Below are positions 1 through 21,593 of a DNA stretch of 64,000 nucleotides, one piece after another. This DNA is from Hansschlegelia beijingensis. Lineage in GTDB: Bacteria > Pseudomonadota > Alphaproteobacteria > Rhizobiales > Methylopilaceae. Numbering within the stretch: position 1 is the first letter of the stretch; each line of letters starts with the position of its first letter. The stretch is taken from contig NZ_JACIDR010000001.1 in NCBI RefSeq assembly GCF_014196425.1, positions 930,001 through 994,000 on the forward strand, written 5' to 3'. Both the position numbers and the translations under genes were made by a program. Below the pieces are notes generated by a model that ran no database searches, had not been told where the DNA came from, and was given only the letters and a program-made list of their open reading frames with translations.

Positions 1-129
1 GAACCGCCTGCCCAGTGAGCCGTTGAGGTCGAGAAATCCGATATGCAGCCGGCCCGGCGCGATGACGCGCACCGCCCGGAGGGCGCGCGAGGGGTCGCCG
101 TCCAGGCGATTTTGCGGGGTGACTCTCAT
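1..129 (-). CDS. Beta-ribofuranosylaminobenzene 5'-phosphate synthase, N-terminal fragment
   Basis: Only the first 43 codons are present; the gene reads leftward off the window edge. The ATG is at 127-129 on the minus strand. The peptide contains APGRLHIGFLDLNGSLGRRF, the N-terminal strand signature of GHMP-type RFAP synthases, which in archaea and H4MPT methylotrophs join p-hydroxybenzoate or p-aminobenzoate with phosphoribosyl pyrophosphate in methanopterin synthesis. It is divergent from the pterin dehydratase/fhc operon across about 158 bp, which fits a cofactor role. The assignment rests on a short N-terminal motif plus context; another GHMP-family member is possible but less likely here. 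Confidence 0.72.
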   Translation of the reverse strand, partial: MRVTPQNRLDGDPSRALRAVRVIAPGRLHIGFLDLNGSLGRRF

Positions 130-287
130 GGCGTTTCCGGCGGCACCTTATTCGCCGCGGGCCGCGCTCGCCAACCTCGCTCCTTGGCCTAAGTCGCTAT
201 CGGACGAAACGTCGCGACGCGTTGCGCCGGCTCAAAGCGCTGTGTAAGCCTCGCGCCACTTCCAGTGTTTTGGGGCTCCGTCCGCCA

Positions 288-662
288 ATGGCCGAACGAA
301 AAGCCGTCATTCCGCCAGATCAGGTGGAGGCCCGCCTCGCCGCCGAGCTGCCCAAGTGGCGGCTGGAGGACGGCTGGATCCGGCGCACCTACAAGACCCA
401 GAGCTGGAAGAGCACGCTGATGGTGATCAACACCGTCGGCCATCTTGCGGAGGCCGCGTGGCATCATCCGGACCTCACCGCCTCCTACGCCTGGGTGGAG
501 GTGCGGCTGATGTCCCACGACGCCAAGGGAATCACAGATCGCGACTTTGAGCTCGCGAAGAAGATAGAGAGCGTCATTCAATGGCAGCCCGGCTTGGAAG
601 GCGGCGCGCTCGAGGGCACGCCGCAGGGCGACCAGCGCTTCGCGTATGTGAAGTATGACTGA
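288..662 (+). CDS. Pterin-4a-carbinolamine dehydratase family protein
   Basis: A 124-residue protein of the PhhB/DCoH family. The family active-site pattern is visible: E-x3-HHP, then a Tyr six residues on, and His-x8-Asp (WHHPDLTASYAW followed by MSHDAKGITDRD). The family dehydrates 4a-hydroxytetrahydrobiopterin, but no aromatic amino acid hydroxylase is nearby. The stop overlaps the fhcB start by 8 bp, so it is the first gene of the fhc operon, and a role in handling tetrahydromethanopterin or its precursors is inferred. ATG 288 was chosen over an in-frame TTG at 222 because the conserved domain begins just after it. The Shine-Dalgarno sequence is weak. Confidence 0.85.
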   Translation: MAERKAVIPPDQVEARLAAELPKWRLEDGWIRRTYKTQSWKSTLMVINTVGHLAEAAWHHPDLTASYAWVEVRLMSHDAKGITDRDFELAKKIESVIQWQPGLEGGALEGTPQGDQRFAYVKYD

Positions 663-1899
663 CGTGTCCAGCGGCGGCGTTACGCATCACGACGTCGTAT
701 GCCCGTTCTGCGGTTTGGGCTGCGACGACGTCTCGCTTACGGTTCGGGGGAACGCTGTCGAGGCCGGGGAGGGCGCCTGCGGGCGCGCCGCCGCGCTGTT
801 CCGGCGCTCGGCCGATCCCGCGCCCTCGGCGCGCGTGATGGGCCGCGAGGTGGCCCTCGACGAGGCGCTGGCCGCCGCCGCGGAGCTGGTCTCCGCCGCG
901 CGGTCGCCGGTCTATGGCGGGCTCGGCACGGACGTCGACGGCGTCAGGGCGCTGATCAAGCTCGCCAGCAAGACGGGCGGCAGCGTCGATCACTATGCTT
1001 CGACGGGCCTGTTCCGGAACCTCTCGACCTCCCAGCGCAAGGGCTGGATCGCGACCACGCTCGCGGAGGTCCGCAACCATTGCGACCTTCTGGTGGTGAT
1101 CGGTCCCGACCCCTCGGAGGCGTTCCACCGGCTCTACAACCGGATCACGCCGCCGACCGGCCGCTTCATCAAGGGCAAGCGCAAGGTCGTGTTCCTCGGT
1201 GGCGCGCCGTCCGATGAGGCGCGCGCTCAGCTTGAGGGCGTGGAGATCCAGACGATCGCCGTTCCGGAAGGCGAGCTTCTCGATGCGCTGTCGCGTCTGC
1301 AGGGGCTGCTCTCGGACGCTCCGGCGGTGCCGGGCGGCCCCGATCTCGCCGCGCTCGCGGAGGGGCTCAAGGGCGCGCATTACGGGGTGCTGGCCTGGAG
1401 CGCCGGAATGCTCGGCGGGGACGGCGACCTGATCGTGGAGCGAGCCTCGATCATCGTCGACATCCTGAACGTCGACACCCGCGCCGCCTGTCTGCCGCTC
1501 GCGGGCCGGGACAATCTGATCGGCGCGAACCAGGCGTTCCTGTGGAACATCGGCTTCCCGCTGCGGACCGCGTTCCGCGGCGGCCAGGCCGACCACGACC
1601 AGCTGCTCAACAGCACGGAAGAAGCGCTTAAGTCCGGCGATCTGCTGATCTGGACCTCGGCTTTCCGGCCGGAGCAGCCGCCCGCCTTCGAGGGCCAGCT
1701 GGTCGCCTTCGCGCATCCCGACACGATCTTCGAGCGCGAGCCGGAGGTGTTCGTGCCGGTCGGTCAGCCCGGCCTCGATCATCGCGGGCTCGCGTTCCGC
1801 ACCGACACCGTGGTGAGCATTCCCCTCGGGCATTATCGCGACGCCGGCCTGCCGAGCATCGCGATGGTGGCCAAGGGTCTTCGGGAGCGTCTGTCATGA
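655..1899 (+). CDS. fhcB: Formyltransferase/hydrolase complex subunit B
   Basis: A 414-residue homolog of formylmethanofuran dehydrogenase subunit B. In bacteria FhcB is part of the cytoplasmic Fhc complex that converts formyl-H4MPT to formate through methylofuran and is not itself thought to perform redox chemistry. The N-terminus keeps the CPFCGLGC motif (residues about 16-23) and a fourth Cys in GACGRAA, the positions that bind a [4Fe-4S] cluster in the archaeal enzyme. No obvious molybdopterin-ligating selenocysteine or cysteine segment was recognised. It overlaps the pterin dehydratase gene by 8 bp and fhcA by 4 bp (ATGA), indicating one translationally coupled operon. Confidence 0.95.
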   Translation: MTDVSSGGVTHHDVVCPFCGLGCDDVSLTVRGNAVEAGEGACGRAAALFRRSADPAPSARVMGREVALDEALAAAAELVSAARSPVYGGLGTDVDGVRALIKLASKTGGSVDHYASTGLFRNLSTSQRKGWIATTLAEVRNHCDLLVVIGPDPSEAFHRLYNRITPPTGRFIKGKRKVVFLGGAPSDEARAQLEGVEIQTIAVPEGELLDALSRLQGLLSDAPAVPGGPDLAALAEGLKGAHYGVLAWSAGMLGGDGDLIVERASIIVDILNVDTRAACLPLAGRDNLIGANQAFLWNIGFPLRTAFRGGQADHDQLLNSTEEALKSGDLLIWTSAFRPEQPPAFEGQLVAFAHPDTIFEREPEVFVPVGQPGLDHRGLAFRTDTVVSIPLGHYRDAGLPSIAMVAKGLRERLS

Positions 1900-3557
1900 G
1901 CGCCGTGCGCATCACCGGCGGCAAGGTCCTCGATCCGGCGAACGGCGAAGTCGGGGTCGAGCGCGACGTCTTCATCCAGGACGGCCGCATCGCCGCGTCC
2001 GGAGCGGTGGGCGAGGGCGTGACCGAGACGATCGACGCCAAGGGCGGCGTCGTCATGGCCGGCGCGATCGACATCCACACCCATATCGCGGGCGGCAAGT
2101 CGAACATCGCGCGTCTGCTGATGGTCGAGGAGCAGCGGGCGATCCGCGAGCCCGCGGGCCCGTTCTGCGCCTGCGGCGGCGGGCTTTCGACCATGACCGC
2201 GCACGCCACCGGCTGCCGGTACGTGGAGATGGGCTACACGGCGGCATTCGAACCCGCCGTGGTCGGCGCCAATGCGCGGCACATGCATTACGAGATGGGC
2301 GACATCCCGTTCCTCGACACCGGCGGCTATCTGGTGCTGGGCAACGATGACTTCCTGCTCGATCTGATCGCCAGCGGCGCGGGTCAGCAGGCCGTCAACG
2401 ACTATGTCGCCTGGATGCTCGCCGCGACCAAGTGCATGGCGATCAAGATCGTCAATCCGGGCGGCATCAACGCCTTCAAGTTCAACGCGCGCAGGCTCGA
2501 CCTCGACGAGGCCAACCCGCATTACGAGATCACCCCGCGCAAGATCCTCACCACGCTCATCCGGGCGGTGACCGAGCTCGGGCTGGCGCATCCGATTCAC
2601 CTGCACGGCTGCAATCTCGGCGTGCCGGGCAACGAGCAGACCACGCTCGACACGATCGCGGCGACCGAGGGCCTCCCCCTGCACATGACGCATGTGCAGT
2701 TCCACTCCTACGGGACCGAGGGCGACCGGAAGTTCTCCTCCGGAGCGGCCAAGATCGCCGAGGCCGTGAACAAGAACCCGAACATCTCGATCGACGTCGG
2801 CCAGATCATGTTCGGCCAGACCGTGACGGCTTCCGCCGACCTGATGTCGCAACACCGCAACCGCGGCATCGCCACGCCGAAGCGCTGGATCGGCATGGAC
2901 ATCGAGATGGACGCGGCCTGCGGGATCGTGCCCTTCGAGTACAAAGACAAGTCCTTCGTCAACGCGCTGCAGTGGGCCATCGGGCTGGAGCTGTTCCTGC
3001 TGGTCGAGGACCCCTGGCGGATCTTCCTGACGACCGACCACCCCAACGGCGCTCCCTTCACCACCTATCCGCATCTGCTGCGGCTGCTGATGGACAAGCC
3101 GTTCCGCGACGAGCAGTTCGCCAAGCTGCCGAAGTCGGCGCGCAAGCACTCCATCCTCAATGAGCTGAAGCGGGAATACACGCTCGAGGAGATCGCGATC
3201 GTCACCCGGGCGGCGCCCGCCAAGATCCTCGGCCTGACCGATCGCGGACATCTCGGGGCCGGCGCCGCCGGCGACGTCGTGATCTATCGCGACGATCCCG
3301 ACCGCGAGGCGATGTTCTCCAAGGCCGAGTACGTCCTGAAGGACGGGCGGGTCGTGGTGAAGGACGGCGAGATCGTCGACGTCGTCTATGGCCGCACCCA
3401 CTCGGTCGCTCCCGACTACGACAAGAGCATGGACGCCAAGCTCGACCGCTGGTTCGACCAGGCGATCGGCTTCAAGGCCAAGACCTTCAAGATGCGGGAC
3501 CACGAGATCCGCGACGGACAGGGCACGGTCGTGCACGCCACCAAGAGGTCCGCATGA
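1896..3557 (+). CDS. fhcA: Formyltransferase/hydrolase complex subunit A (formylmethanofuran hydrolase)
   Basis: A 553-residue amidohydrolase-fold protein. It hydrolyses the formyl group of formyl-methylofuran to formate at a binuclear metal site. The metal-binding segment DIHTHIAGGKSN lies near residue 60, further histidines occur in PIHLHGCNLG and LPLHMTHVQFH, and an aspartate lies in TTDHPNGAPF. Its length matches other bacterial FhcA proteins. It overlaps fhcB and fhcD by 4 bp each. Catalytic residues appear intact, so this is expected to be the active hydrolase of the complex. Confidence 0.96.
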   Translation: MSAVRITGGKVLDPANGEVGVERDVFIQDGRIAASGAVGEGVTETIDAKGGVVMAGAIDIHTHIAGGKSNIARLLMVEEQRAIREPAGPFCACGGGLSTMTAHATGCRYVEMGYTAAFEPAVVGANARHMHYEMGDIPFLDTGGYLVLGNDDFLLDLIASGAGQQAVNDYVAWMLAATKCMAIKIVNPGGINAFKFNARRLDLDEANPHYEITPRKILTTLIRAVTELGLAHPIHLHGCNLGVPGNEQTTLDTIAATEGLPLHMTHVQFHSYGTEGDRKFSSGAAKIAEAVNKNPNISIDVGQIMFGQTVTASADLMSQHRNRGIATPKRWIGMDIEMDAACGIVPFEYKDKSFVNALQWAIGLELFLLVEDPWRIFLTTDHPNGAPFTTYPHLLRLLMDKPFRDEQFAKLPKSARKHSILNELKREYTLEEIAIVTRAAPAKILGLTDRGHLGAGAAGDVVIYRDDPDREAMFSKAEYVLKDGRVVVKDGEIVDVVYGRTHSVAPDYDKSMDAKLDRWFDQAIGFKAKTFKMRDHEIRDGQGTVVHATKRSA

Positions 3558-4450
3558 TCCTCAACGGCGTCGAGATCCGCGACAGCTTCGCGGAGGCGTT
3601 CCCGATGGTCGGGACGCGTTTGATCATCACGGCGGACACGCCGCGCTGGGCGATGACCGCCGCGAAGACCATGACGGGCTTCGCGACCTCGGTGATCGGC
3701 TGCGGCTGCGAGGCGGGCGTGGAGCGCGTCGTTCCGGCCGAGGAGACGCCGGACGGACGGCCCGGCGTCGCCGTGCTCATCTTCGCGATGGACATCAAGG
3801 GGCTGAAGGCGGTCGTGCCGCTCCGCATCGGGCAGTGCGTGCTGACCTCGCCGACCTCGGCCTGCTTCGCCGGCATGACCGGCGGCGACACGGTCTCCAT
3901 CGGCAAGGCGCTGCGCTATTTCGGCGACGGCTGGCAGATCGCCAAGAACGTCGACGGGCGCAGGATCTGGCGCATTCCGGTGATGGAAGGCGAGTTCGTC
4001 TGCGACCATGAGAGCGGCACCGTGTCCGGGGTCGGCGGCGGGAACATCCTGATCCTCGCGACCTCGCGCGGCGAGGCGCTCGCCGCCGCCGAAGCCGCCG
4101 TCGACGCCATGGAAAAGGTCGAAGGCTGCATCCTGCCGTTCCCGGGCGGCGTGGTGCGGTCCGGCTCGAAGGTCGGCTCGAAGTACAAAGGCATGTTCGC
4201 CTCCACCAACAACTTCTACTGCCCGACGCTGCGGGCGCAGACGCCGACGCAGCTTCCGCCGGAGGTCGCCTCGGTGATGGAGATCGTGATCGACGGAGTC
4301 TCGCCGGAAGCGGTCTCGGCCTGCACGCGCGCCGGCATCGAGGCGGTCGTCGCGCTCGGCCGCGCCAAGGGCGTGGTGGCGATCGACGCCGGAAACTACG
4401 GCGGCAACCTCGGGCCGTTCCACTTCAAGCTGCGGGAGATCATGGCGTGA
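3554..4450 (+). CDS. fhcD: Formylmethanofuran:tetrahydromethanopterin formyltransferase
   Basis: A 298-residue protein of the archaeal Ftr family. In methylotrophs FhcD moves the formyl group from formyl-H4MPT to methylofuran inside the Fhc complex, working in the direction opposite to methanogenesis. Family features include the N-terminal EIRDSFAEAFPM segment, the GGNILI strand and the conserved C-terminal AIDAGNYGGNLGPFHFKL. Full length, with ATGA overlaps to fhcA before it and fhcC after it. Confidence 0.96.
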   Translation: MILNGVEIRDSFAEAFPMVGTRLIITADTPRWAMTAAKTMTGFATSVIGCGCEAGVERVVPAEETPDGRPGVAVLIFAMDIKGLKAVVPLRIGQCVLTSPTSACFAGMTGGDTVSIGKALRYFGDGWQIAKNVDGRRIWRIPVMEGEFVCDHESGTVSGVGGGNILILATSRGEALAAAEAAVDAMEKVEGCILPFPGGVVRSGSKVGSKYKGMFASTNNFYCPTLRAQTPTQLPPEVASVMEIVIDGVSPEAVSACTRAGIEAVVALGRAKGVVAIDAGNYGGNLGPFHFKLREIMA

Positions 4451-5250
4451 CCGGCGTGATCCTCACCGCGCGCGGCGACTTCGAAGCCCGCGTCGACCTG
4501 ACTGGCGTGCTGCCCGGCGCAGACGGCGGCCTCGCTAAGCGCGCGATCCCCTATGGGGGCCGCGTGGTGGAGCTGGGCGAACTGTTCGACGTCTCGGGCT
4601 CAGGCGCCGAGCGGCTGACGATCGAGGGCGGCGACGCCCGCCTCGACGGCGTGGGCGCGGGTCTCTCCGAGGGAGAGATCGTCGTCCGCGGCGACGTCGG
4701 CGCGCGGCTGGGCCACAAGATGAGCGGCGGCATGATCTCCGTGAAGGGATCCGCCGGCGCTTACGCGGCGAGCGAGATGTCGGGCGGCAAGATCGCGATC
4801 GGCGGCGACGCCGGCGAGCGCCTCGGCGCGGCCGCTGACGGCAGCCGGCGCGGCATGAGCGGCGGGGTCGTGATCCTCGGCGGCTCCGCCGGCGCCCGCT
4901 CCGCGGAGAGGCTGCGCGGAGGCGTCGTCGTGATCGAGGGCGACGCCGGCGAAGGCGCGGCTTCCGATCTGATCGCCGGCACCGTCGCGGTCGGCGGCAG
5001 GCTCGCCGGCGGCGCCGGCCGCGGCATGAAGCGCGGGACGCTGTTTCTCCGGTCGCCGGAGGGGCTGTCGGGCGGCTTCAGGGACGCAGGCGAGCATGAC
5101 CTCGTCCTGCTTCGGGTGCTCGTCCGGCGCTCGGCGGAGCTTGCGGCCTTCCTCGGCCCTGACATCACCCGCGCCCATCGTTTCGCGGGCGACCTCTACG
5201 CGGGCGGAAAGGGCGAAGCGCTCGTGGTGGCGCCGTCCGGCCGGATGTGA
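4447..5250 (+). CDS. fhcC: Formyltransferase/hydrolase complex subunit C
   Basis: A 267-residue right-handed beta-helix protein related to FmdC/FwdC and to the C-terminal domain of glutamate synthase. The repeating pattern of GG, MSGG and GDAG turns (for example KMSGGMISVKGSAG and GRGMKRGTLF) runs from about residue 60 to 210. It is the structural subunit of the Fhc complex. Last gene of the fhcBADC operon; it ends 10 bp from the stop of the convergent MfnB-like gene. Confidence 0.95.
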   Translation: MTGVILTARGDFEARVDLTGVLPGADGGLAKRAIPYGGRVVELGELFDVSGSGAERLTIEGGDARLDGVGAGLSEGEIVVRGDVGARLGHKMSGGMISVKGSAGAYAASEMSGGKIAIGGDAGERLGAAADGSRRGMSGGVVILGGSAGARSAERLRGGVVVIEGDAGEGAASDLIAGTVAVGGRLAGGAGRGMKRGTLFLRSPEGLSGGFRDAGEHDLVLLRVLVRRSAELAAFLGPDITRAHRFAGDLYAGGKGEALVVAPSGRM

Positions 5251-5260: not shown

Positions 5261-5956
5261 TCACGCGGCCTGGCGGGATTCCGCCAGCGCCTGCCGTATC
5301 GAGGTCATCGCGGCCGGGTGAAGCCGGCCGGTCCGGCCGCCTTCACATAGCGCCCCGCGAAATCCGAGATAGTCCGGTCCGATCGCCGCCAGCGGCGCGA
5401 CGTCGTCCGACTTCAGCGAACCCGCAAGACCCGTGAGCAGGCCGAGCCCACGCGCCGCGCCTACGAACCGTCGCAGGTCAGGCTCGGACAAATGCGCCCG
5501 GAGGCCGCCAGCGGATTTGTCGGCGGTGTCCAGCATCGCTCCACGGAAGCCGGCCGCCGCGATCCGAGGAAGCAGTCCGAAGTCGGACGCGCGATCGGCG
5601 AAGAAGACGGCGATCAGCTGCGCCCGCTCTGCGAGCGGCCGGAGCGCCGCGAGACACCCAGCGACGTCGCCCGCGAACAGTCCGAGCTTCACCATCGGAA
5701 CGCCCGTCGCCGCCACCCGCTCGGCGGCCGCGCGGACCAGCTCCGGCGCCATGGGCTGATCGCCGATCGTGGCGCTCAGCGCCGGCTTGGGCCCCATCCA
5801 GGTCCGCCAGCGCTCCACGGCGGCCGTGAGCTCCGGAGTTTCCCATGCGCCCAAAGCGCCTTGCGCGGGATTCTTCAAGTCCACGATGTCGGCTCCGCCG
5901 GCGCGGACGAGCTCCATCTCGTCAAGCGTGGCGACGCTCGCCAGGAGGCCGGTCAT
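5261..5956 (-). CDS. MfnB-like (5-formylfuran-3-yl)methyl phosphate synthase
   Basis: A 231-residue TIM-barrel protein of the archaeal MfnB family, which makes the furan ring of methanofuran from two glyceraldehyde 3-phosphates. The start MTGLLASVATLDEMEL and the segment ADIVDLKNPAQGALG carry the family lysine (K28 here), and MVKLGLF supplies a second conserved lysine. ATG 5956 was chosen because it overlaps the DUF447 stop by 4 bp and gives the family N-terminus; a longer frame exists upstream but is unlikely. Last gene of the leftward cofactor operon; in bacteria the product cofactor is methylofuran. Confidence 0.85.
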   Translation of the reverse strand: MTGLLASVATLDEMELVRAGGADIVDLKNPAQGALGAWETPELTAAVERWRTWMGPKPALSATIGDQPMAPELVRAAAERVAATGVPMVKLGLFAGDVAGCLAALRPLAERAQLIAVFFADRASDFGLLPRIAAAGFRGAMLDTADKSAGGLRAHLSEPDLRRFVGAARGLGLLTGLAGSLKSDDVAPLAAIGPDYLGFRGALCEGGRTGRLHPAAMTSIRQALAESRQAA

Positions 5957-6519
5957 GACGCCGCCCGCGCGCGGTGGTCGCGGATCGCGTCGAGCAGCCA
6001 CTGCCAGGCCTCGAGCTCGCTTGGCCCCGCGGTCTTGTCGATCGCGATCTGCAGATAGGCGAACTCGGCGTCGATCTTCTCAGGCGGCAGCATGTTCAGG
6101 CGGCTCACCAGGACGGCCCCCTCGAGGACGGCTGCGATCGCCCGGTTGAGGCCGAGGAATGCGCGATGGGTTTTCTCGGCGACGACCACGCAGTGCAGCT
6201 TCGGGCGCTCGTCGCTTCCGTCTATCCGCGCCACCCGCACCTCGTGGTGCGACAGGGCGGCTTGCAGGCGAACCGACGGAATCGCGCTCGTCGCGACGGT
6301 CGGCCAGGTCGGGAGCCGACGGGTGACGCAGCCGGCGAAGATCCGGGCGTCATCCGTGAAGTTCACCACGCCGCAACGCGTCGCGAGGAAGTTGTCGAGG
6401 GTCGTCGAAGGGCGGAAGGGTTGCAGCAGCCAGCCTTCCTCGGTCGGGGTCGCGCCCATCGGCGCGACATGAGGGACCCCGTCAGGCGAGAGCGTGGTGA
6501 CGACCGTCTCGCGGATCAT
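5953..6519 (-). CDS. DUF447 family protein
   Basis: A 188-residue protein with a flavin-reductase-like N-terminal part: MIRETVVTTLSPDGVPHVAP followed by PFRPSTTLDNFLATRCGVVNFTDDARIFA-type segments. DUF447 occurs in methanogens and in H4MPT-using methylotrophs; I know of no assigned reaction. Its overlap by 4 bp with both neighbours in an operon of methylofuran/H4MPT synthesis genes suggests a step in that pathway, possibly FMN-dependent. No signal peptide, so cytoplasmic. Confidence 0.8.
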   Translation of the reverse strand: MIRETVVTTLSPDGVPHVAPMGATPTEEGWLLQPFRPSTTLDNFLATRCGVVNFTDDARIFAGCVTRRLPTWPTVATSAIPSVRLQAALSHHEVRVARIDGSDERPKLHCVVVAEKTHRAFLGLNRAIAAVLEGAVLVSRLNMLPPEKIDAEFAYLQIAIDKTAGPSELEAWQWLLDAIRDHRARAAS

Positions 6520-7940
6520 GACGGCTCGGCCTTTGCGCCGCGCTTCGCGGCGAGCGTGGAGCCAGCCTCCTTGAACCCCATCTTGTGGGCCTCCTCGACG
6601 CTTTCCGCGGTTACGGCGGCCACGCCGAACCGCAGGCCTTCATCCTGCGCGTAGCGCTTGCCGAGCCGGAAGGCGATCTCGGCGCGGGCGGTCTCGACGC
6701 CGAGGTAGAATGCGTGCGCCGCGTCGCCCTCGACCGCCAGATGCGGGAAATGGTCGAAAGGATCCGTCGCCAGCCAATGGCCGTCGCGGTTGAACACGTG
6801 CACTCCGGCCTCGCTCACCTGGATGCGGTAGTTGGGATCGCGGATCTGGCCCGCCAGGCTTTCAATATCGGCGGCGCTCGACGTGACAGGCCGGCGATCG
6901 CGCAGCGCCATGAGCCCGCCGCCGAAGCCCTGAGGCAGCGAGTTCGCCTCGCGGGCGGCGAAGAACTCCCGGCGCGCGCGGTCGAACTCCCGCACTGCCG
7001 TCCGGCAATGGGGGCTCACCTGCACCGCCAGCACGGCGGCGACCCTGAGCTCCGAGATCATCCCCATCAGAATCGCGTTGATGCCGGTGGTGTCCGCATC
7101 AGTCAGTTCGGTGACGTTGCCGATCCCCATCAGGATCGGGGCGTCCGGCCGCTGTCGCCTGAGCTCGGCGTAGCGCACGACCGACTCGGTGAAGCCGAAA
7201 TGGATGGGATCGAGGATCGGGTCCGCGAGATAGGGCGCCCCCTTTGCCGCCATGGCGTCCATCGCCCTCAGCAGCGAGGCCATGTCGCCAGGAGAGGACG
7301 GCACGAGAACCGGAACGGCGTCCCCCTCGTCGGCGATCCCCAGCGTATTCTCGTGCAGGCTCAGAAGGTAGCTCGCTCCGGCGCGGTTGGCGCGGGCGAG
7401 TTCCTCTCCATCCGCGGAATCGACGCTGACCCTGAAGCCCGCTTGGGCGAGCGCCGCGATCGAGTCCTCCAGATGCGGGAAAGCCGTATCGGGCATGCAG
7501 CCGAGGTCGATCACGTCGGCCCCGTCGGCGGCGAGCATCCGGGCTCGGGCGACGATCTCCTCCACCGACAGCCCGGTCGCGTCCACGATCTCGGCGAAGA
7601 TCAGGCAGTCGTGACGCGACAGGTCCGGCTCGACGCCGCCCTGGCCGAAGAAGGTGGGGAGATCGGCGAGCTCCTCCGGCCCTCGCTCGAAGCGCGCTCC
7701 GAAGCGGTCGCTCAAGCGGTCCAGGTCTCCCCGGAAACGGCCAGGCAGCACCACCCGGTCCACCGCGTCAGGCATTTTCAGCCGGCGCTCGATGATCTCC
7801 GCGGTCATCAGCGCCGCGACCTTGACGCCGATGTTCACCACCACCGGATCGAGCGCGTCGTTGCGCAGCTCGTCGGCCATGCGCGCCACGCGCTGCTCGG
7901 CGAGCGAGCCCGTCAGCAGGGCGACCCTCTCAGCGCTCAC
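6516..7940 (-). CDS. Dihydropteroate synthase-like protein (DUF6513/TIGR00284 type)
   Basis: A 474-residue cytoplasmic protein. The N-terminal ~120 residues look like a nucleotide- or phosphate-binding fold (VALLTGSLAEQRV). A central DHPS-like barrel follows (ADGADVIDLGCMPD, FRVSVDSADGEEL, ILMGIGNVTEL), then a separate C-terminal domain from about residue 340. Such proteins are shared by methanogens and H4MPT methylotrophs and are thought to act in methanopterin synthesis, although canonical DHPS makes dihydropteroate in folate synthesis. Overlaps both neighbours by 4 bp. The exact reaction is unproven. Confidence 0.85.
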   Translation of the reverse strand: MSAERVALLTGSLAEQRVARMADELRNDALDPVVVNIGVKVAALMTAEIIERRLKMPDAVDRVVLPGRFRGDLDRLSDRFGARFERGPEELADLPTFFGQGGVEPDLSRHDCLIFAEIVDATGLSVEEIVARARMLAADGADVIDLGCMPDTAFPHLEDSIAALAQAGFRVSVDSADGEELARANRAGASYLLSLHENTLGIADEGDAVPVLVPSSPGDMASLLRAMDAMAAKGAPYLADPILDPIHFGFTESVVRYAELRRQRPDAPILMGIGNVTELTDADTTGINAILMGMISELRVAAVLAVQVSPHCRTAVREFDRARREFFAAREANSLPQGFGGGLMALRDRRPVTSSAADIESLAGQIRDPNYRIQVSEAGVHVFNRDGHWLATDPFDHFPHLAVEGDAAHAFYLGVETARAEIAFRLGKRYAQDEGLRFGVAAVTAESVEEAHKMGFKEAGSTLAAKRGAKAEPS

Positions 7941-13257: not shown

Positions 13258-13267
13258 GGGGGGAACG

Positions 13268-13951: not shown

Positions 13952-13986
13952 GGCAATTCCTTCTCCTGAACGCGACAACGACGCTG

Positions 13987-14844: not shown

Positions 14845-15659
14845 GCCGAAGCCCTCCGGGCCAGAACCACGCCCTCTGCGTCGTCCGCGCCCACCACCGC
14901 GAGGAAGGCCGCGCCGACATCCTCGGCGCCCGCCCTGGCTCTCAGTTCGTCGACAGTGCCGTCGGCCATCACCCTGCCCTTGTGGAGCACGACCACCCGA
15001 TCCGCCACCTCTATCTCGTCGACCAGGTGGGTGGCCCAGAGCACGCCGATCCCGTCCTCATCGATCAGCCGCCGGACCTCTTCGATGAGGGTGCGGCGGG
15101 AGCCGATGTCGAGTCCGGTCGTGGGCTCATCGAGGAGAAGAAGGCTCGGCTGGTGGAGCAGCGCCCGCGCGATCTCCACCCGCCGCATCTGGCCGCCGGA
15201 GAGCGCCCGGACGCGATCCTTCGCCCGCCCCTCGAGGCTCACGCGTCGCAGCGCGACGTAGGCGCGCTCCTTGGCCTCACGGCGTCCGATGCCGTGAAGC
15301 GCAGCGTGGTAGAGGAGGTTCTGAAGAACGGTCAGCTCGAGATCGAGCGTGCGGGACTGAAACACCACCCCGAGCTGCGAGAGCGCCGCGGCCGGATCCC
15401 GCCTGACGTCGTGGCCGAGAACCCGGATGGTCCCGGAACGGTTGTCGTAAAGCCGCGTGATCAGGGAGAACAGCGTGGTCTTGCCGGCGCCGTTCTGGCC
15501 GACAAGAGCCGTGAAGGCGCCGCGGGGCGCTTCCAGCGTAACGTCATCCAGGGCCTTGCGCGCGCCGAACGTATGGGTGACGCCGGTCACGCTGAGAGCC
15601 GGTTCGGAAGGCGCGACGGGCGCGCGGCTCTGCGGTGCGATCGTCATCACTGGGCTCAT
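14841..15659 (-). CDS. ABC transporter ATP-binding protein (LutE-like)
   Basis: A 272-residue cytoplasmic ATPase. Walker A GQNGAGKTT at residues 54-62, signature LSGGQMRRVEIARALL, Walker B LLLLDEPTTGLD and switch ATHLVDE are intact. The NodI/DrrA-like layout fits pairing with the ABC-2 permease immediately downstream (ATGA overlap). In Methylobacterium, homologous clusters next to PQQ enzymes are needed for lanthanide entry to the cytoplasm; that function is inferred here from gene content and the neighbouring xoxF. Confidence 0.92.
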   Translation of the reverse strand: MSPVMTIAPQSRAPVAPSEPALSVTGVTHTFGARKALDDVTLEAPRGAFTALVGQNGAGKTTLFSLITRLYDNRSGTIRVLGHDVRRDPAAALSQLGVVFQSRTLDLELTVLQNLLYHAALHGIGRREAKERAYVALRRVSLEGRAKDRVRALSGGQMRRVEIARALLHQPSLLLLDEPTTGLDIGSRRTLIEEVRRLIDEDGIGVLWATHLVDEIEVADRVVVLHKGRVMADGTVDELRARAGAEDVGAAFLAVVGADDAEGVVLARRASA

Positions 15660-15696: not shown

Positions 15697-16704
15697 TCAC
15701 GGGATGGCCACCACGCCCCATGGCGACCGACCCACCGCGACCGACTTCTTCACCTTGAGGCTGTCGACATCGATCACGGACACGTCGTTGGAGTTGCCGT
15801 TGGTGGTGTAAAGGGTCTTCTTGTCCGGCGAGAACGCCATCTGCCAGACCCGCTGGCCGACGAGCAGATAGGCCTTCGTCTCATAGGTGGGGACGTCTAC
15901 GACCGCCACCCGGTTGGCCGGGCCCAGCGCAACGAAGGCGGTCTTTCCGTCGTCGGTGATGCGAATGCCGACCGGCTGGATCGCCTCCTCGTTCACCCCG
16001 GGGATCGAGAAGGTGAGCTTCTTCACCACCTGATGCGTGGCGTTGTCGATCACCGAAACGGTGCCGCCCACCTCGGCCGAAACCCAGGTGTGCTTGCCGT
16101 CGGGCGTGAACGTGGCGACGCGCGGCCGGCTGTCGACCAGCACGTTCTCCACGATCTGCTTGGTCTGCGTGTCGATGAAATGCGCCATGCTCGTGGTCTC
16201 GGAGGTGTTGACCAGGAGCTTCCCGTCCGGGGAGATCCCCATGCCTTCAGGCTCGACGCCGACCGGAATCTCACCCTCGACCTGGCCGGTCTCGGTGTTC
16301 ACGATGGTGACGAGCGCGTCATCCTCGTTGGCGATGTAGAGCGGGTTCCCCGAGGGATGCAGGACGAACAGCTCCGGGTCGGGCCCGGACGGCAGCGTCT
16401 TCACCAGGCGGTAGTCGTTGGCGTCATAGACCTCGACCCGGTCGTCATCGGACGCGCAGACATAGATGAGCTTTCCGTCGGGACTGGCGGTGACGCCACG
16501 CGGACGGCGGCCCGTCTTGATCGTCTCGATGATGTTCAGCGAGTCGCTGTCGAGCACGGTCATGGTGTGATCGCGTTCGTTGGTCACGAACACCTTGCCG
16601 GCCCAGGCCGGCGCGGGAAACGCGGCGAGGGCGGCGAGCGCGACCCCGGCCGTCATGGTCCTCACGAGCGCAAGCGACGCCCGGCCGGACAGACGAGAGT
16701 TCAT
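15697..16704 (-). CDS. Exported YVTN-type beta-propeller protein
   Basis: A 335-residue periplasmic protein: signal peptide to about residue 35 (APAWA), then seven propeller repeats, each with a strand such as GKVFVTNERDHTMTVLD, LIYVCASDDDRVEVYD or LYTTNGNSNDVSVIDVD. It belongs to the PQQ-catabolism-associated propeller group that accompanies the ABC genes of this cluster. Role unknown; suggestions include metal or cofactor handling near the quinoprotein. Lies 37 bp upstream of the ATPase gene and 49 bp downstream of the binding-protein gene. Confidence 0.88.
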   Translation of the reverse strand: MNSRLSGRASLALVRTMTAGVALAALAAFPAPAWAGKVFVTNERDHTMTVLDSDSLNIIETIKTGRRPRGVTASPDGKLIYVCASDDDRVEVYDANDYRLVKTLPSGPDPELFVLHPSGNPLYIANEDDALVTIVNTETGQVEGEIPVGVEPEGMGISPDGKLLVNTSETTSMAHFIDTQTKQIVENVLVDSRPRVATFTPDGKHTWVSAEVGGTVSVIDNATHQVVKKLTFSIPGVNEEAIQPVGIRITDDGKTAFVALGPANRVAVVDVPTYETKAYLLVGQRVWQMAFSPDKKTLYTTNGNSNDVSVIDVDSLKVKKSVAVGRSPWGVVAIP

Positions 16705-16753
16705 CGGCGATCTCCAGCGTGAGACGAGGGCGGCTGAGAGTCGTCAGCCGTGG

Positions 16754-17983
16754 TCACTGAGCGTTGAAACGACACTGGCTCTCCGGCTTGTCGAAGCCGA
16801 TCGTGTCGAGCGGGTTGGTCTGGTGCAGGAAGCCCGGCTGCGGCGATGCGGTGACCAGCGCTTCGTCCGTCGTCAGAACGATCGGCTGACGGAGCTGGTT
16901 GTCCCAGGGCCGGTAGGTGAAAGACCCGCCCTTGAACCCCGCGAGCTCGAAATCCCTGCCGAAGATGAACTCGCGCAGCTTGGCGGGATCGTTGGATCGG
17001 GTGCGCGTGGCGGCCTCGCCGATCGTCCGCATCGCCAGCCACATCTGGAAGTCCAGCGGGCGCATGCCGCGCTTCGACTGCCGGAAGAAGCGGTTCTGGA
17101 TCTGCTCCGCGCCCCACCCGGTCACGGTGACGTTCCAGGTCGTGGCTCTCAGCCCGGCGGTGCCGACCGTCGGGCGGGGGTCCCAGCTGCGATAGGCGAT
17201 CAGCGGCCCGAATTCGCCGAGCTCGTCCGCGATGACGATGACGTCGTAGCTCGCGCCCTGCGTGAAGACGGGAATGATGTCGTTGCCGGTCTCGCGGGCG
17301 TCAGGCCCGAAATCCCACGTCCGCTCGTCGACGATCTTGGCGCCGAACTTCTTGGCCGACCGTTTCACCGCCTCGGCGTAGAGCTTGTCGTCCGGACGGC
17401 GGCCGACCAGCAGCAGCCATTTGGACCACCGCTTGGTGACGAGGTACTGCGCGACGGCGTCCGTCAGCATCGCCCGGCTGGGGGCGGTGTGGAGCACGTC
17501 GGCCCGGCAGTCGGCCCCGCGCAGCCGGTCGTCGGTCGCGCCGACGTTGAACAGGATGACGTCCTTGCCCTTCGCGGCGTCGGCCATCTTCAAGAGCGCA
17601 TCGGCCGGCACTGCGAGCAGGATGAACTTCGCCCCGCTTTCCAGGATGCGGTTGAAGGCCGGCATTGGGTCCGCGTCGTTCGGCACCAGCTCCTGGGCGA
17701 CGATCTTGTAGTCCTGCTTGAGGAACCGGCCGGTGGTGTTGTTGTCCACGATGCCGAGGCTCGCGCCCGCGATGCCGTCATCCTGCGGCGGCAACGTCAC
17801 GATGTTGTTCCACCACGGCGGATTTTCGGGAAACTGACGCAACACGCCGAAGGTCAGCTCCATCGGCGCGGCCGCGTTCTTGGGCGTCGGAGCGGGGGCG
17901 GGCGCGGCGGGCGCAGTCTGGGCGAGCGCGGGTGCGCCGGTCGCGAGCAGCGCCGCCACGAGGCAGATCGCGACGCCCCTCAC
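16754..17983 (-). CDS. Quinoprotein-associated ABC substrate-binding protein (LutA-like)
   Basis: A 409-residue periplasmic protein of the type-1 (branched-chain-amino-acid-like) binding fold seen in PQQ-associated ABC clusters (TIGR03863 type). GTG 17983 is chosen as start: it gives a clean signal peptide (MRGVAICLVAALLATGAPALAQ) and overlaps the stop of a short leader ORF (GTGA). A longer open frame to 18187 has no signal and no coding look. Motifs include FNVGATDDRLRGADC and VVIADELGEFGPLIAYRSW-like segments. First structural gene of the leftward cluster. Ligand unknown; lanthanide or a lanthanide chelate is inferred. Confidence 0.85.
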   Translation of the reverse strand: MRGVAICLVAALLATGAPALAQTAPAAPAPAPTPKNAAAPMELTFGVLRQFPENPPWWNNIVTLPPQDDGIAGASLGIVDNNTTGRFLKQDYKIVAQELVPNDADPMPAFNRILESGAKFILLAVPADALLKMADAAKGKDVILFNVGATDDRLRGADCRADVLHTAPSRAMLTDAVAQYLVTKRWSKWLLLVGRRPDDKLYAEAVKRSAKKFGAKIVDERTWDFGPDARETGNDIIPVFTQGASYDVIVIADELGEFGPLIAYRSWDPRPTVGTAGLRATTWNVTVTGWGAEQIQNRFFRQSKRGMRPLDFQMWLAMRTIGEAATRTRSNDPAKLREFIFGRDFELAGFKGGSFTYRPWDNQLRQPIVLTTDEALVTASPQPGFLHQTNPLDTIGFDKPESQCRFNAQ

Positions 17984-18021
17984 GCCAGATCGCCTCTGGA
18001 GCAGGTGGAAAAGACGATCAT
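17980..18021 (-). CDS. Putative 13-codon leader ORF
   Basis: ATG 18021 follows a perfect AGGAGG (18027-18032) with a 5-bp spacer and encodes MIVFSTCSRGDLA, then TGA. The stop overlaps the GTG start of the binding-protein gene (GTGA). The strong ribosome site belongs to this ORF rather than to the GTG, so translation of the binding protein is probably coupled to it. It may be only a coupling device; the peptide resembles no known leader. Confidence 0.45.
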   Translation of the reverse strand: MIVFSTCSRGDLA

Positions 18022-18325
18022 GAGCGCCTCCTGCGGGCGGTCGCGCCGCCCGTGCCGTTCTTATTGGACGCTGTTCCGGCGAAGTCGAGAGCACGTCGTC
18101 ATGAGGCAGAGCGCCGCATCCAATCCGGCTCGACCGGCCAGGGAACATTTCCCAGCGATTCCATATTCCGGCTCTCGCCAAATGCAATGCATAAGAGAAT
18201 AATAAGTACTGACGTTTGCTTGATTCACCTGTTCATGGCAGCAATTTATCCTGTATGGCGTTGCGTGCAGAGCGCCGAGGGGCTGCGGAAGCGCCATAAA
18301 AAGAACGACCCCCAGGGAGGAGCCG
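18022..18325. promoter_or_regulatory. Divergent promoter region of two ABC operons
   Basis: 304 bp between the leader ORF (leftward) and the 30-codon ORF (rightward). Contains an AT-rich island at about 18187-18260, including ATAATAAGT (18199-18207), also present in the xoxF upstream island. No gene seen. A GGGAGG at 18315-18320 serves the rightward small ORF. Confidence 0.55.
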
Positions 18326-18418
18326 ATGCATCGCATCACAGCGATTCCACTGCTCGGCGCGCTCGCGGCCTCGTGCTCCGCGCTTTCTGTCCAGACCGCT
18401 GCGCCGAAGGCTTCCTGA
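18326..18418 (+). CDS. Putative 30-residue lipoprotein-like small ORF
   Basis: ATG 18326 lies after GGGAGG with about 5 bp spacing. The 30-residue product has a short basic start, a hydrophobic stretch (IPLLGALAAS) and Cys17 in a lipobox-like LAASC context, leaving a 14-residue tail. Its TGA overlaps the ATG of the next gene (TGATG), so the two are translationally coupled. It could be a real tiny lipoprotein or a coupling leader; I recognise no homolog. Confidence 0.45.
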   Translation: MHRITAIPLLGALAASCSALSVQTAAPKAS

Positions 18419-19416
18419 TGAGCCCGATCAGTCTTTCGCGCCGGGCGGCTCTTGCGGCCTGCGCAGGCGCCGCCGCCATGACGGCGCTGCGTCCCGCAGC
18501 GGCCTCGGCCGCCGCGCCGCTGCGCATCGTGACCTTGAAGTTCGGCACCGTGAACTGGCTTCTGGACACGATCCATGGCGAGGGCTTCGACGCGCGGGAG
18601 GGGGTCACGATGGCCCGCACCGAGCTCGCTTCGACCCAGGCCCTGACGGTCTCGCTGCAGGCGGGTGACTGCGACCTCGCGGTGAGCGACTGGCCCTGGG
18701 CGATGCGTCGTCGGCTGGACGGCGAGCCGTTCCGTTTCGCGCCCTACTCATCGGCGCTTGGCGCCGTCATGGTCGGCGGCGATTCGGGGATCGCTTCGAT
18801 CGCCGATCTCAAGGGCAAGAAGCTCGGCGTCGCCGGCGGACCGCTCGACAAGAGCTGGCTGCTGCTGCGGGCCTATGCGCACGACAAGGTCGACGGCGAC
18901 ATCGCGACCATGCTGGAGCCGGTGTTCGGCGCGCCTCCGCTGCTCTCGGAGCAGCTGCGGCTTGGCCGCGTCGACGGCGTCCTGACCTATTGGAACTATG
19001 CGGCCCGGCTCGACGCCGGAGGATATCGTCGCCTCGTCGACATGAGCGACGTCATGAAGCAGCTCGGCCTGACGCCGCCGCCGCCGCTCGTGGGCTTCGT
19101 CTGGCGCGAAACGCTGCTCGACAAGGCCGGCGCGCAGGTCGAAGGCTTCTTCCGCGCCGTGGCCGCCGCCAATGCGACCCTCAAAACCTCCGATGCGGCC
19201 TGGGAGCGCCTTCGCCCCAGCATGCAGGTGACGTCGGACGCCGAGTTCGCGAGGCTGAGGGACTATTTCCGGTCCGGCGTCCCGGGTCCCTGGACCGAGG
19301 CCGACCTGAAATCTTCGCAGAAGCTCTATGAGCTCCTGACCGATCTTGGCGGCGCGGAGTTCGTCGGCCCGAACCCGCATTTCGATCCCGCGCTGTTCTG
19401 GTCCCCTAAGGTCTGA
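18418..19416 (+). CDS. ABC transporter substrate-binding protein (NrtA/SsuA/TauA-like)
   Basis: A 332-residue exported protein. The N-terminus MSPISLSRRAALAACAGAAA has a twin-arginine motif (SRRAAL), suggesting Tat export. The mature type-2 fold shows LRIVTLKFGTVNWLLDTIHG, SLQAGDCDLAVSDWPWAMRRR and DLKGKKLGVAGGPLDKSW. The family binds nitrate, sulfonates, taurine or pyrimidine precursors; the ligand here is not evident. First of three rightward ABC genes adjoining a xox/quinoprotein cluster, so a link to methylotrophy is inferred from position only. Confidence 0.88.
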   Translation: MSPISLSRRAALAACAGAAAMTALRPAAASAAAPLRIVTLKFGTVNWLLDTIHGEGFDAREGVTMARTELASTQALTVSLQAGDCDLAVSDWPWAMRRRLDGEPFRFAPYSSALGAVMVGGDSGIASIADLKGKKLGVAGGPLDKSWLLLRAYAHDKVDGDIATMLEPVFGAPPLLSEQLRLGRVDGVLTYWNYAARLDAGGYRRLVDMSDVMKQLGLTPPPPLVGFVWRETLLDKAGAQVEGFFRAVAAANATLKTSDAAWERLRPSMQVTSDAEFARLRDYFRSGVPGPWTEADLKSSQKLYELLTDLGGAEFVGPNPHFDPALFWSPKV

Positions 19417-19425
19417 GGCGGTCAG

Positions 19426-20178
19426 TTGGCGGCGGCTGGTCGACTGGGATGGTGGGCTCTGTCGCTCGCCATGTTCGTGGCAGTCTGGTGGGCGGTGGCG
19501 CTGCTGCGCCAGGATTTCAGGCTTCTGCCGACGCCGGACCTCGTGCTCGAGGCGTTGGTCGCGGCCGCCAAGACCGGCGCCTTGCAGAGCAATCTGCTGA
19601 TCACGATGGCGCGCGTCGCGGCGAGCTTCTTCATCGCCATGACCCTCGGATCCGCGCTCGGCATCCTGCTCGGCATGTCGCGCACGGCTGACCGCCTGCT
19701 CGGCCCCTGGGTGGTTCTGTTCCTGAACCTGCCGGCGCTCGTCATCATCATCCTCTGTTACGTGTGGTTCGGCCTGATCGAAGCGGCCGCGGTGGCCGCG
19801 GTCTCCATAAACAAGATCCCGAACGTGGCCGTGACGCTGAGGGAAGGAGCGGCGGCGCTGAGCCGCGACCTGGCGGAGATGGCCGCCGTCTATCGCTTCG
19901 GGCGCTGGAAGACCCTCCGGCACGTCATACTGCCGCAGCTTTCTCCCTATTTCGCGGCCGCGGCGCGGTCGGGGCTCGCCCTCGTGTGGAAGATCGTGCT
20001 CGTCGTCGAGCTGCTCGGCCGGCCTAACGGCGTCGGCTTCGAGCTGCAGACGGCCTTCCAGCTGTTCGACGTCGCGACCATCCTCGCCTATGCGCTGGCG
20101 TTTGGGCTGATCGTCCAGGCGATCGAGCTCGGAATCATCCAGCCCTGGGAGCGGGCCGTGAACAGGTGGCGGCGGTGA
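19426..20178 (+). CDS. ABC transporter permease (SsuC/TauC-like)
   Basis: A 250-residue BPD_transp_1 permease with about six membrane segments (for example LGWWALSLAMFVAVWWAVAL and GPWVVLFLNLPALVIIILCY). The EAA loop EGAAALSRDLAEMAAVYRFG is present. Start is TTG 19426, 9 bp after the binding-protein stop; no ATG is well placed. Overlaps the ATPase gene by 13 bp. Importer-type permease, unlike the ABC-2 permease of the leftward cluster. Confidence 0.9.
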   Translation: MAAAGRLGWWALSLAMFVAVWWAVALLRQDFRLLPTPDLVLEALVAAAKTGALQSNLLITMARVAASFFIAMTLGSALGILLGMSRTADRLLGPWVVLFLNLPALVIIILCYVWFGLIEAAAVAAVSINKIPNVAVTLREGAAALSRDLAEMAAVYRFGRWKTLRHVILPQLSPYFAAAARSGLALVWKIVLVVELLGRPNGVGFELQTAFQLFDVATILAYALAFGLIVQAIELGIIQPWERAVNRWRR

Positions 20179-20909
20179 CGGGCGTCACGATCGAGATCGA
20201 GGAGAAGACGTTTCCGGCCGCCCGCGGCGCGCCGGCGCGCGCGCTTTACCGGGATTTCCGGCTGGAGCTGGCCGACCAGAGCTTCGTGGCGCTGCTCGGA
20301 CCCTCGGGCCTCGGCAAGACGACGCTGCTCAACATGATCGCCGGCGTCGATCGCGGCTTCGAGGGCCGGATCACGTTCTCGCGCGGCCCGGACCCGCGGA
20401 TCGCCTATGTCTTCCAGAGCCCGCGGCTGCTGCCGTGGCGGACGGTGCTGCAGAACGTGCTGCTGCCGCTGCCGCCCGGGGCCGACAGTCTGAACCGGGC
20501 GCGGTCGGTGCTGCGCGACATGGGGCTGGGCGACGCCGAAGAGGTCTACCCGGAGCGTCTCTCGCTCGGCATGCAGCGCCGGGTCGCGCTTGCGCGTGCC
20601 TTCGCGCTGGAGCCGGAGCTGCTGCTGATGGACGAGCCCTTCGTCTCGCTTGACGAGGCGAACGCCAGCCGCCTCAGGGACCTTCTGGCGGAGCTGATCG
20701 AGGCGCGGCCGACCACGGTGCTGTTCGTGACCCATGACAGCCACGAGGCCGTGCGCCTGGCGGATCGCGTGGTCGTGCTCGGCGGCCCGCCCGTGCGGGT
20801 GGTGCGCGACGTAAGGGTGGAGCTCAGCCGGGAAGGGCGGCTCGCCGCCGGCGAGGTCGAGCGCGTGCGCGGAACCGTTCTGGGCGCGGGTCCCACGGTC
20901 GCGGCCTGA
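20166..20909 (+). CDS. ABC transporter ATP-binding protein (SsuB/TauB-like)
   Basis: A 247-residue ATPase with Walker A GPSGLGKTT (residues 45-53), Q-loop VFQSPRLLPWRTV, Walker B LLLMDEPFVSLDE and switch FVTHDSHEAV. The signature reads LSLGMQRR instead of LSGGM/Q, an unusual substitution of the first glycine. Starts with GTG 20166 inside the permease gene. Last gene before a strong bidirectional terminator. Confidence 0.9.
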   Translation: MAAVTGVTIEIEEKTFPAARGAPARALYRDFRLELADQSFVALLGPSGLGKTTLLNMIAGVDRGFEGRITFSRGPDPRIAYVFQSPRLLPWRTVLQNVLLPLPPGADSLNRARSVLRDMGLGDAEEVYPERLSLGMQRRVALARAFALEPELLLMDEPFVSLDEANASRLRDLLAELIEARPTTVLFVTHDSHEAVRLADRVVVLGGPPVRVVRDVRVELSREGRLAAGEVERVRGTVLGAGPTVAA

Positions 20910-20954
20910 GGGCGCGGATCCGGAAGTTTTCCGAACTAGTGTCGAAACGCGGAA

Positions 20955-20982
20955 ACGGCCCGAAGCTTGCGCTTCGGGCCGT
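20955..20982. terminator. Bidirectional terminator between ABC operon and fae
   Basis: A perfect 12-bp stem, ACGGCCCGAAGC (20955-20966) with GCTTCGGGCCGT (20971-20982), and a 4-nt loop. On the minus strand it is followed by TTTCCGCGTTT, a plausible U-rich tail for fae; the plus side lacks a T-run. It lies between two converging transcription units. Confidence 0.8.
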
Positions 20983-21080
20983 CGCCGACCGTCTCATTTG
21001 CCAAAGAGCAGGGCGGCCAACCGCTGGAGCAGGCCTGGAGGCTTTGCTGCAGGCGGGTTCTGTCCAGGGTGGTTTCCGCT

Positions 21081-21593
21081 CTATGCGTTGGCGGCGAAGG
21101 GGTGCTTCGCCGTCGCGGCCTGCGCCACGACGTCCTTGGCCTTCGGCTCGCCGGTGACGGCGCGCTTCAGGGCTTCCTTGGTCGCCTCGTAGTTGTACTG
21201 CTGGATCTTGGCGTCGTCCGCAGCTTCCCAGTGGATGAACACGCCGACCGAGATGAACAGGTCGTCGGCTTCGTCCTCGGGGATCACGCCTTCAGCGACG
21301 CTGTCGACGACAGCCTTCGCGACGCCGTACTGAGCCGGGCCGAACATCTGGACGGCCTGACGGGCGTCCTTGATGGTGACCTTGTTGAACAGGATCGTGT
21401 TCGGCTTGGCGAGCAGGTTCGGCGTCACGACCGCGAGAAGCGAGGTGAAGCCGTCCTTGTTGTTCGTCAGAGCGTTGACGAACGCCGACTCGGCCGTCGA
21501 GCCGCGCGGGCCGATGATCAGGTCGATGTGAGCGACCTCATTGCCGTCGCCAACCAGCGACTCACCGATGAGCGTCTTGGTAATCTTCGCCAT
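21081..21593 (-). CDS. fae: Formaldehyde-activating enzyme
   Basis: A 170-residue cytoplasmic enzyme that condenses formaldehyde with tetrahydromethanopterin to methylene-H4MPT, protecting the cell and feeding the Fhc route. Family signatures include [18 protein letters not shown] with the catalytic histidine, [28 protein letters not shown] and the C-terminal HPFAANA. ATG 21593 follows GGGAGG at a 6-bp spacing; an ATG 6 bp upstream overlaps that site and is rejected. Codon bias is strong, as expected of an abundant protein. A hairpin terminator lies about 100 bp downstream. Confidence 0.97.

Follow-up and report, generated by a model that had tools for sequence, protein, structure and literature searches.

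The gene neighbourhood of XoxF, a pyrroloquinoline quinone (PQQ) methanol dehydrogenase, has been described in Methylobacterium extorquens AM1, where xoxF1 (META1p1740), orf6 (1746), orf7 (1747), pqqE (1748), pqqCD (1749), pqqB (1750) and the lut genes (1778–1787, with lutG right after the permease gene) fall into one run of about 48 locus tags (PMC7391723; all literature is cited here from excerpts of the articles). We compared this and other systems with a stretch of 64,000 nt from Hansschlegelia beijingensis (contig NZ_JACIDR010000001.1, positions 930,001–994,000; G000:C1:930001-994000 in our own numbering, in which G, C, L and f mark genomes, contigs, loci and families), hereafter called the window, which belongs to a 3.66 Mb genome rated 100% complete. 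Common to AM1 and the window are XoxF, XoxJ, LutA/B/E/F-type proteins, a gene in the lutG position and genes in the orf7 and orf6 positions (here ex25 and ex26), and a two-component pair in the window is a candidate for the MxbDM kind. Unlike the xoxFGJ arrangement of AM1, the window is without xoxG; none of the genes recognised in the first 26.8 kb encodes a TonB receptor (LutH was not sought in the rest of the genome) and no lanmodulin-like EF-hand in the 64 kb (one motif pattern, rest of the genome not searched). Moreover, pqq genes are not found between the sensor pair and ex25/ex26, whereas fae, fhc and mfn-type genes adjoin.

Nine Ancylobacter-type loci (L080–L088), with the order xox-lut-pqqT-fae-histidine kinase-response regulator-pqqBCE-ex25-ex26, are near-identical in order over 20 kb. 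They differ from the window by xoxG (in 7 of 9, by clustering) and by the presence of pqq genes, and no fhc or mfn-type genes were seen within 20 kb. A further counterpart is the PedA1A2BC system of Pseudomonas putida. Its families other than the permease are presumably also common to the lut-type system described here. The permease family TIGR03861, whose NCBIfam name follows PedC, is shared, and PedA1A2BC serves PedH in P. putida, whereas here it would be XoxF that is served (PMC6839425). Finally, PqqT of M. extorquens (PDB 9b1u, 9b1v) belongs to the same sequence family as a binding protein of the window (residues 34–327), for which PQQ binding is predicted from the family.

On the whole we consider it moderately probable that the window carries an island for lanthanide-dependent methanol oxidation in which XoxF has companion proteins, a PqqT-type system recaptures PQQ, xoxG has been lost and MxaG is the electron acceptor. 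XoxF would oxidise methanol in the periplasm and the LutABEF-type genes would move lanthanide; the exported proteins in the LutG and orf6 positions would be companions that serve XoxF specifically, probably in its maturation or metal loading, and the PqqT-type ABC system would recapture PQQ. Fae, Fhc and the cofactor genes would take formaldehyde on to formate, and the sensor pair would probably control the switch. The genus would have lost xoxG, with XoxF most likely passing its electrons to MxaG, the cytochrome cL of an unlinked mxaFJG locus. The genes at the centre of this reading are the following:

9160–10968, plus strand: XoxF, PQQ methanol dehydrogenase (TIGR03075, 781 bits)
11344–12204 (start may be 11353), plus strand: XoxJ (TIGR03871, over cut-off)
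12274–13371 (likely start 13257), minus strand: TctC-like solute-binding protein (PF03401)
13268–13990, minus strand: exported helical protein in the LutG position (no Pfam or NCBIfam match; AlphaFold2 pLDDT 87)
13987–14844, minus strand: LutF-like ABC-2 permease (TIGR03861, over cut-off)
14841–15659, minus strand: LutE-like ATPase (TIGR03864, over cut-off)
15697–16704, minus strand: LutB-like beta-propeller (TIGR03866, over cut-off)
16754–18187 (true start uncertain, probably lower), minus strand: LutA-like binding protein (TIGR03863, over cut-off)
25684–26415, plus strand: exported protein ex25, orf7 position (by gene order; no Pfam or NCBIfam match)
26412–26759, plus strand: exported Cys-containing protein ex26, orf6 position (by gene order; no Pfam or NCBIfam match)

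Nine proteins were profiled across a sample of 150 relatives including our own genome, a single tool-chosen set in which 131 genomes have a completeness >=90% and a contamination <=5%, and 13, our own and 12 others, represent the genus. Queries and thresholds differ per protein (pqqC was sought with an NCBIfam model and ex26 with an alignment, the rest with single proteins). When XoxF is called at >=60% identity (the XoxF set; no matches lie between 54% and 64%), XoxF, the LutG-position protein and ex26 are each found in 43 of the 150 genomes, and the three sets are identical. For both companions the limit was E 1e-6, and the weakest match was 2e-28 for the LutG-position protein and 9e-38 for ex26. 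The corresponding figures are 51 genomes for lutF (43 shared with the XoxF set, 8 outside), 57 for pqqC (42 shared, 15 outside, 1 missing inside), 49 for pqqT (40 shared, 9 outside, 3 missing inside) and 35 for fhcA (29 shared, 6 outside, 14 missing inside). Eight genera have members both in and out of the XoxF set, one of them by way of G138; these within-genus contrasts were chosen by eye from the labels shown and follow from the identity of the sets. The match between the sets does not reflect linkage alone: a distance of over 31 kb from xoxF, or a separate contig, was recorded for ex26 in 10 of the 43 genomes and for the LutG-position gene in 15. Neither protein was found in the five genomes with only a 49–54% XoxF match (G026, G048, G090, G124, G138); in all of these except G138 we take the matching genes to be MxaF or other PQQ enzymes. 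In AM1, deletions of lutG and of orf6 lower growth on methanol with La to 0.03 and 0.03 per hour, compared with 0.16 (PMC7391723). Given the identical sets, their partial lack of linkage and these growth defects, the LutG-position protein and ex26 are most likely dedicated factors for the XoxF of this clade, acting in assembly or metal loading. Their exact co-distribution with XoxF looks new within the literature searched.

Some points weigh against such an obligate partnership. The 60% threshold was picked post hoc, with the table in view, and the sample genomes are akin, so that p values for co-distribution overstate significance. In addition, G138 carries a divergent XoxF-like gene (50–53%) that adjoins xoxG, lut-type and pqqT-type genes, and neither the LutG-position protein nor ex26 has a match there; this genome is a counter-case to a universal companion rule. 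The same locus (L036) also holds fhc.

The XoxF translation contains DYDG and with it the extra Asp of the lanthanide site, which we take the DYD motif to represent. It is 84–87% identical to the best copy in 11 of the 12 other genus members, the copy of G007 being fragmented. The reading frame is uninterrupted, and pN/pS values of 0.24 and 0.33 from two pairs suggest purifying selection. Two or more XoxF copies (>=60%) are present in 8 or 9 of the 13 genus genomes, one of them fragmentary; our own genome has one. Extra copies with 83% identity at G006:C1:4087459, G009:C2:197979 and G011:C1:148912 lie in open frames of 1155–1162 codons, which may be fusions or merely stop-free GC-rich frames.

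By its families the first ABC system is of the lut type. The gene order is A-B-E-F-G, with an exported-protein gene directly after the permease gene as in AM1, and the LutG name follows from this order and from the family. In the LutG-position protein two Cys are invariant across 18 aligned rows. Its AlphaFold2 model is confident and helical, and nothing better than E 0.13 was found for it in the PDB, so no function was inferred from the fold. The TctC-like gene, which the sequence-only reading had placed among the strong candidates by association, turned out to be a weak one: a homologue adjoins the lut/xox genes in 10 of the 12 other genus members, none was found at the corresponding place in the mapped loci of other genera, and its profile, dropped from further use, matched 91 of the 150 genomes, reflecting a large paralogous family.

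XoxG has been described as the dedicated electron acceptor of XoxF and is usual in alphaproteobacteria. In the window no xoxG lies between xoxF and xoxJ, and the 64 kb yielded no cytochrome c gene: stop-free frames from about 70 codons upwards contained C-x(2-4)-CH once, at 41644, a match that is apparently spurious. The XoxG profile TIGR03874 was negative in our genome but also silent in all 14 controls; the test was therefore redone with a real XoxG protein of the Ancylobacter type, which detects XoxG in other families. At E 1e-6 this query matched none of the 13 genus genomes, and at a relaxed E of 0.001 there was still no match in 12 of the 13, while in the whole sample it matched 31 genomes, namely G138 and all 30 members of the XoxF set from outside the genus. 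A member of the same family, G014, retains xoxG between xoxF and xoxJ (L066). All 13 genus genomes have mxaF, mxaJ and mxaG: in our own, MxaG (MoxG, TIGR03872) and MoxJ score over their cut-offs, and the 12 others all give MxaG tblastn matches at 59–74%. The loss of xoxG in the genus looks new within the literature searched, and the article excerpts found contain no statement on its absence in Methylopila or Hansschlegelia. Betaproteobacterial XoxG1 cytochromes are reported to group with MxaG (PMC5874918, PMC5723320). We infer that in this genus XoxF most likely hands its electrons to MxaG.

Mutants elsewhere speak partly against MxaG as the acceptor, one of them in AM1, whose genome we take to carry mxaG. 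An AM1 xoxG mutant grows on methanol with La at 0.04 compared with 0.16 per hour (PMC7391723), and xoxG mutants of Methylomonas LW13 are impaired with La despite mxaG (PMC5874918). In LW13 the mxaG gene comes after mxaF, and La affects the mxaF transcript in the opposite sense to xoxF (PMC5874918), so MxaG may be scarce just when XoxF works. Besides, a class I cytochrome c adjoins xoxF in three genus members (G006, G009 and G011; L161, L162 and L163). The alternative that another cytochrome c accepts the electrons thus has to be taken seriously, doubtful as we hold it to be: it would account for these three neighbours and for the failure of native MxaG to offset xoxG loss in AM1 or LW13, and gammaproteobacterial XoxG4 offers a precedent in that its gene is found away from xoxF and it diverges from the other XoxG groups (PMC5874918). 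The presence of MxaG throughout the genus argues against it, as does the lack of a cytochrome c gene in the window (the cytochromes of the remaining genome were not surveyed).

It is also conceivable, though in our view unlikely, that XoxF is mainly a lanthanide sensor or a minor enzyme in this genus, for which no dedicated cytochrome was kept, with MxaF doing the bulk of methanol oxidation. The absence of XoxG matches in all 13 genomes that keep mxaF, mxaJ and mxaG would fit, as would the dependence of mxaF expression on xoxF1 in Methylobacterium (PMC7356819). However, the LutG-position gene and ex26 are retained in 13 of 13 genomes, xoxF itself looks to be under purifying selection, and most genus members, though not our own genome, have multiple XoxF copies, all of which counts against a minor role. 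Staying with MxaG as the acceptor, we tentatively propose, as a possibility rather than an expectation, that this genus amounts to a natural xoxG knock-out, its XoxF having been rewired to the calcium enzyme's acceptor, MxaG, and that the proteins in the LutG and orf6 positions are an obligate assembly set for the XoxF of this clade, whatever cytochrome or transporter accompanies it.

Divergently from the lutA-type gene, a second ABC system begins, followed by fae:

18326–18418, plus strand: possible leader ORF of 30 aa (from the sequence; its stop overlaps the pqqT start by one base)
18418–19416, plus strand: PqqT-type binding protein (PDB 9b1u/9b1v, E 4e-59 by phmmer over residues 34–327; profile E 1e-115)
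19426–20178, plus strand: permease of the PqqT-type system (PF00528; adjoins the binding protein in relatives)
20166–20909, plus strand: ATPase of the PqqT-type system (PF00005)
21081–21599, minus strand: Fae, formaldehyde-activating enzyme (TIGR03126, over cut-off)

Judged by these matches, the second (NMT1-type) system is PqqT-type; the idea that it might be a novel XoxF-linked importer was dropped because of the PDB match. In the binding protein K145 is conserved without exception across the 31 aligned rows, and from the chain numbering the K of the DKSW motif probably corresponds to K142 of PqqT. The solved PqqT is reported to bind PQQ with a Kd of 50 nM (PMC12124388), and family membership suggests that the system of the window may likewise recapture PQQ. 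The family occurs in 49 of the 150 genomes and in 45 of the 48 with an XoxF query match at E <1e-150. Among the best 80 of 462 relatives (from Alpha-, Beta- and Gammaproteobacteria), 27 loci have XoxF >=60% and 50 have lutA/B/F-type genes; 57 have one or the other and 23 neither, some loci being short.

As to PQQ as the ligand, two observations count on the other side. PqqT-like genes occur without a pqqC match in 6 of the 49 genomes (G026, G056, G095, G111, G129, G134), 4 of which are also without an XoxF match, and the system seems to import into the cytoplasm, whereas XoxF is periplasmic. In three loci (L057–L059, from G056, G129 and G095) of a genus without XoxF (E <1e-150) or pqqC matches, the PqqT-like ABC systems are possibly PQQ scavengers or have another ligand. 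A related suggestion, which we think improbable, is that the substrate of the NMT1-type system is not free PQQ but a lanthanophore or PQQ complexed with lanthanide. The divergent orientation of the system beside the lutA-type gene and its co-occurrence with lutF in 45 of 49 genomes favour this suggestion, and PQQ-loaded PqqT has been reported to bind La (PMC12828617); the binding of PQQ itself by the solved relative is against it.

The leader ORF is preceded by a purine-rich stretch resembling a ribosome site. No counterpart was recognised upstream of pqqT in relatives. Neighbouring families were counted in 140 loci (60 plus the 80 above, with some species in both sets), whose ORFs were called mechanically and from which recurrent clusters resembling spurious antisense frames were removed by eye. 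A DUF3280-type gene occurs in 26 of these 140 loci, its C-terminal part lying just upstream of pqqT in several; no such gene was found in the window.

We also asked how far the block as a whole is maintained. Of the 29 relatives that have both xoxF and fhcA, 18 carry them no more than 31 kb apart (families f1, f2, f5, f45, f50), namely 11 of 13 within the genus and 7 of 16 outside it (f2, f5, f45, f50); in the other 11, fhcA is distant from xoxF or on another contig. By our own estimate (random placement, 4 Mb genome), chance would bring the two together in about 1.5% per genome. The block has thus been kept by some members of the order, and in the rest it is broken up. That clustering and co-distribution are merely an inherited neighbourhood without functional meaning is very improbable: the kinship of the genomes and the separation of fhcA, the LutG-position gene or ex26 from xoxF in some of them would allow it, but the linkage recurs across families and the latter two genes stay in the same 43 genomes even when apart from xoxF.

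These comparisons bear out in part what had been read from the sequence alone, i.e. a C1-oxidation island of about 21.6 kb whose clustering is not random and whose unassigned genes may be judged by association. Family searches confirmed the gene list in the main, and association does work for the genes inside the island: it yielded two XoxF-linked unknowns, although many of the supposedly unassigned genes belong to lut-type, PqqT-type or methylofuran/tetrahydromethanopterin (H4MPT) cofactor groups. The content of the island stands, but its extent had to be revised, since fae ends at 21599 and not at 21593, and linked genes reach 26759; the candidate list had accordingly stopped too early, leaving out ex26, one of the two best XoxF-linked unknowns. 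The contrast drawn with Methylobacterium, in which the loci were held to be separated, was overstated in view of the single tag run of AM1. We assume that fae and fhc of AM1 fall within that run as well. In sum, the finding is sound but consists mostly of known modules.

Past fae, genes that recur near xoxF elsewhere run on to 26759 (about 26.76 kb). In addition to ex25 and ex26 they are:

21931–22158, plus strand: conserved small protein sm69 (tblastn E 6e-33; family in 29 of 140 loci; no NCBIfam match)
22491–22925, plus strand: exported cupredoxin-fold protein (relatives between lutB- and lutE-type genes in 18 of 140 loci)
22943–23188, plus strand: small exported protein (orthologues in genus members and three Ancylobacter loci)
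23185–24900, plus strand: sensor histidine kinase, candidate MxbD-type by position (PF02518, PF00512, PF00672; near xoxF/pqq in other families)
24897–25580, plus strand: OmpR-type response regulator, candidate MxbM-type by position (near xoxF/pqq in other families)

Relatives of the cupredoxin-fold protein thus occupy the lutC/lutD place. Its model is confident (pLDDT 84) and matches cupredoxins structurally; among 16 aligned rows two Glu are invariant while no His, Cys or Met is, and for this reason it is probably not a copper protein. Two of the Ancylobacter-type loci (L086 and L087) have the histidine kinase, response regulator, pqqB, pqqC, pqqE, ex25 and ex26, and L064 (G131) shows the identical set and order; pqqB, pqqC and pqqE were named from one member each. 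As the relatives of ex25 and ex26 follow pqqE in the way that orf7 and orf6 do in AM1, we assign them to the orf7 and orf6 places. These names, like that of MxbDM, go by order and family, and from its position the kinase-regulator pair may be the MxbDM counterpart. In the window the interval between response regulator and ex25 is free of pqq genes, and pqqC is on another contig (G000:C5:156089). A similarly pqq-free arrangement, histidine kinase-response regulator-ex25-ex26, lies between fhc and xoxF in L071 (G134), a genome without a pqqC match. Further downstream, the window has a suhB/mmgR-type sRNA (RF00519, 71 bits) at 46110–46185 on the minus strand.

Upstream of xoxF, the island begins with the formaldehyde-oxidation and cofactor genes:

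222–662, plus strand: pterin-4a-carbinolamine dehydratase-like protein (PCD; PF01329, E 1.6e-27; NF002017, over cut-off)
655–1899, plus strand: FhcB-like (TIGR03129, E 5.4e-62; 209.7 bits, below the NCBIfam cut-off of 327.8)
1896–3557, plus strand: FhcA (TIGR03121, 714 bits, over cut-off)
3554–4450, plus strand: FhcD (TIGR03119, over cut-off)
4447–5250, plus strand: FhcC (TIGR03122, over cut-off)
5261–5944, minus strand: MfnB-like (5-formylfuran-3-yl)methyl phosphate synthase (PF04476, E 1.8e-60, over cut-off; NCBIfam below cut-off)
5953–6519, minus strand: DUF447 protein (PF04289 and PF20766, over cut-off)
6516–7940, minus strand: DHPS-like DUF6513 protein (PF20123, over cut-off; TIGR00284, E 8e-54, below cut-off)
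7937–8521, minus strand: MfnE-like kinase (NF040622, E 1.1e-16, below cut-off)

All four Fhc subunits are recognised, in the order FhcB-A-D-C (655–5250, plus strand), with FhcB below its cut-off. Because several cofactor genes also score under NCBIfam cut-offs, their names are to be read at the level of families.

Two results appear worth following: that the LutG- and orf6-position proteins co-distribute exactly with the XoxF of this clade, and that the genus has lost xoxG. The group includes Hansschlegelia quercus, the source of a lanmodulin employed in rare-earth separation (PMC10232371). A genus that keeps XoxF without an XoxG match makes the choice of cytochrome testable by simple gene removals, and the two proteins that track XoxF without a Pfam or NCBIfam match are good candidates for the step in which lanthanide and PQQ are inserted.

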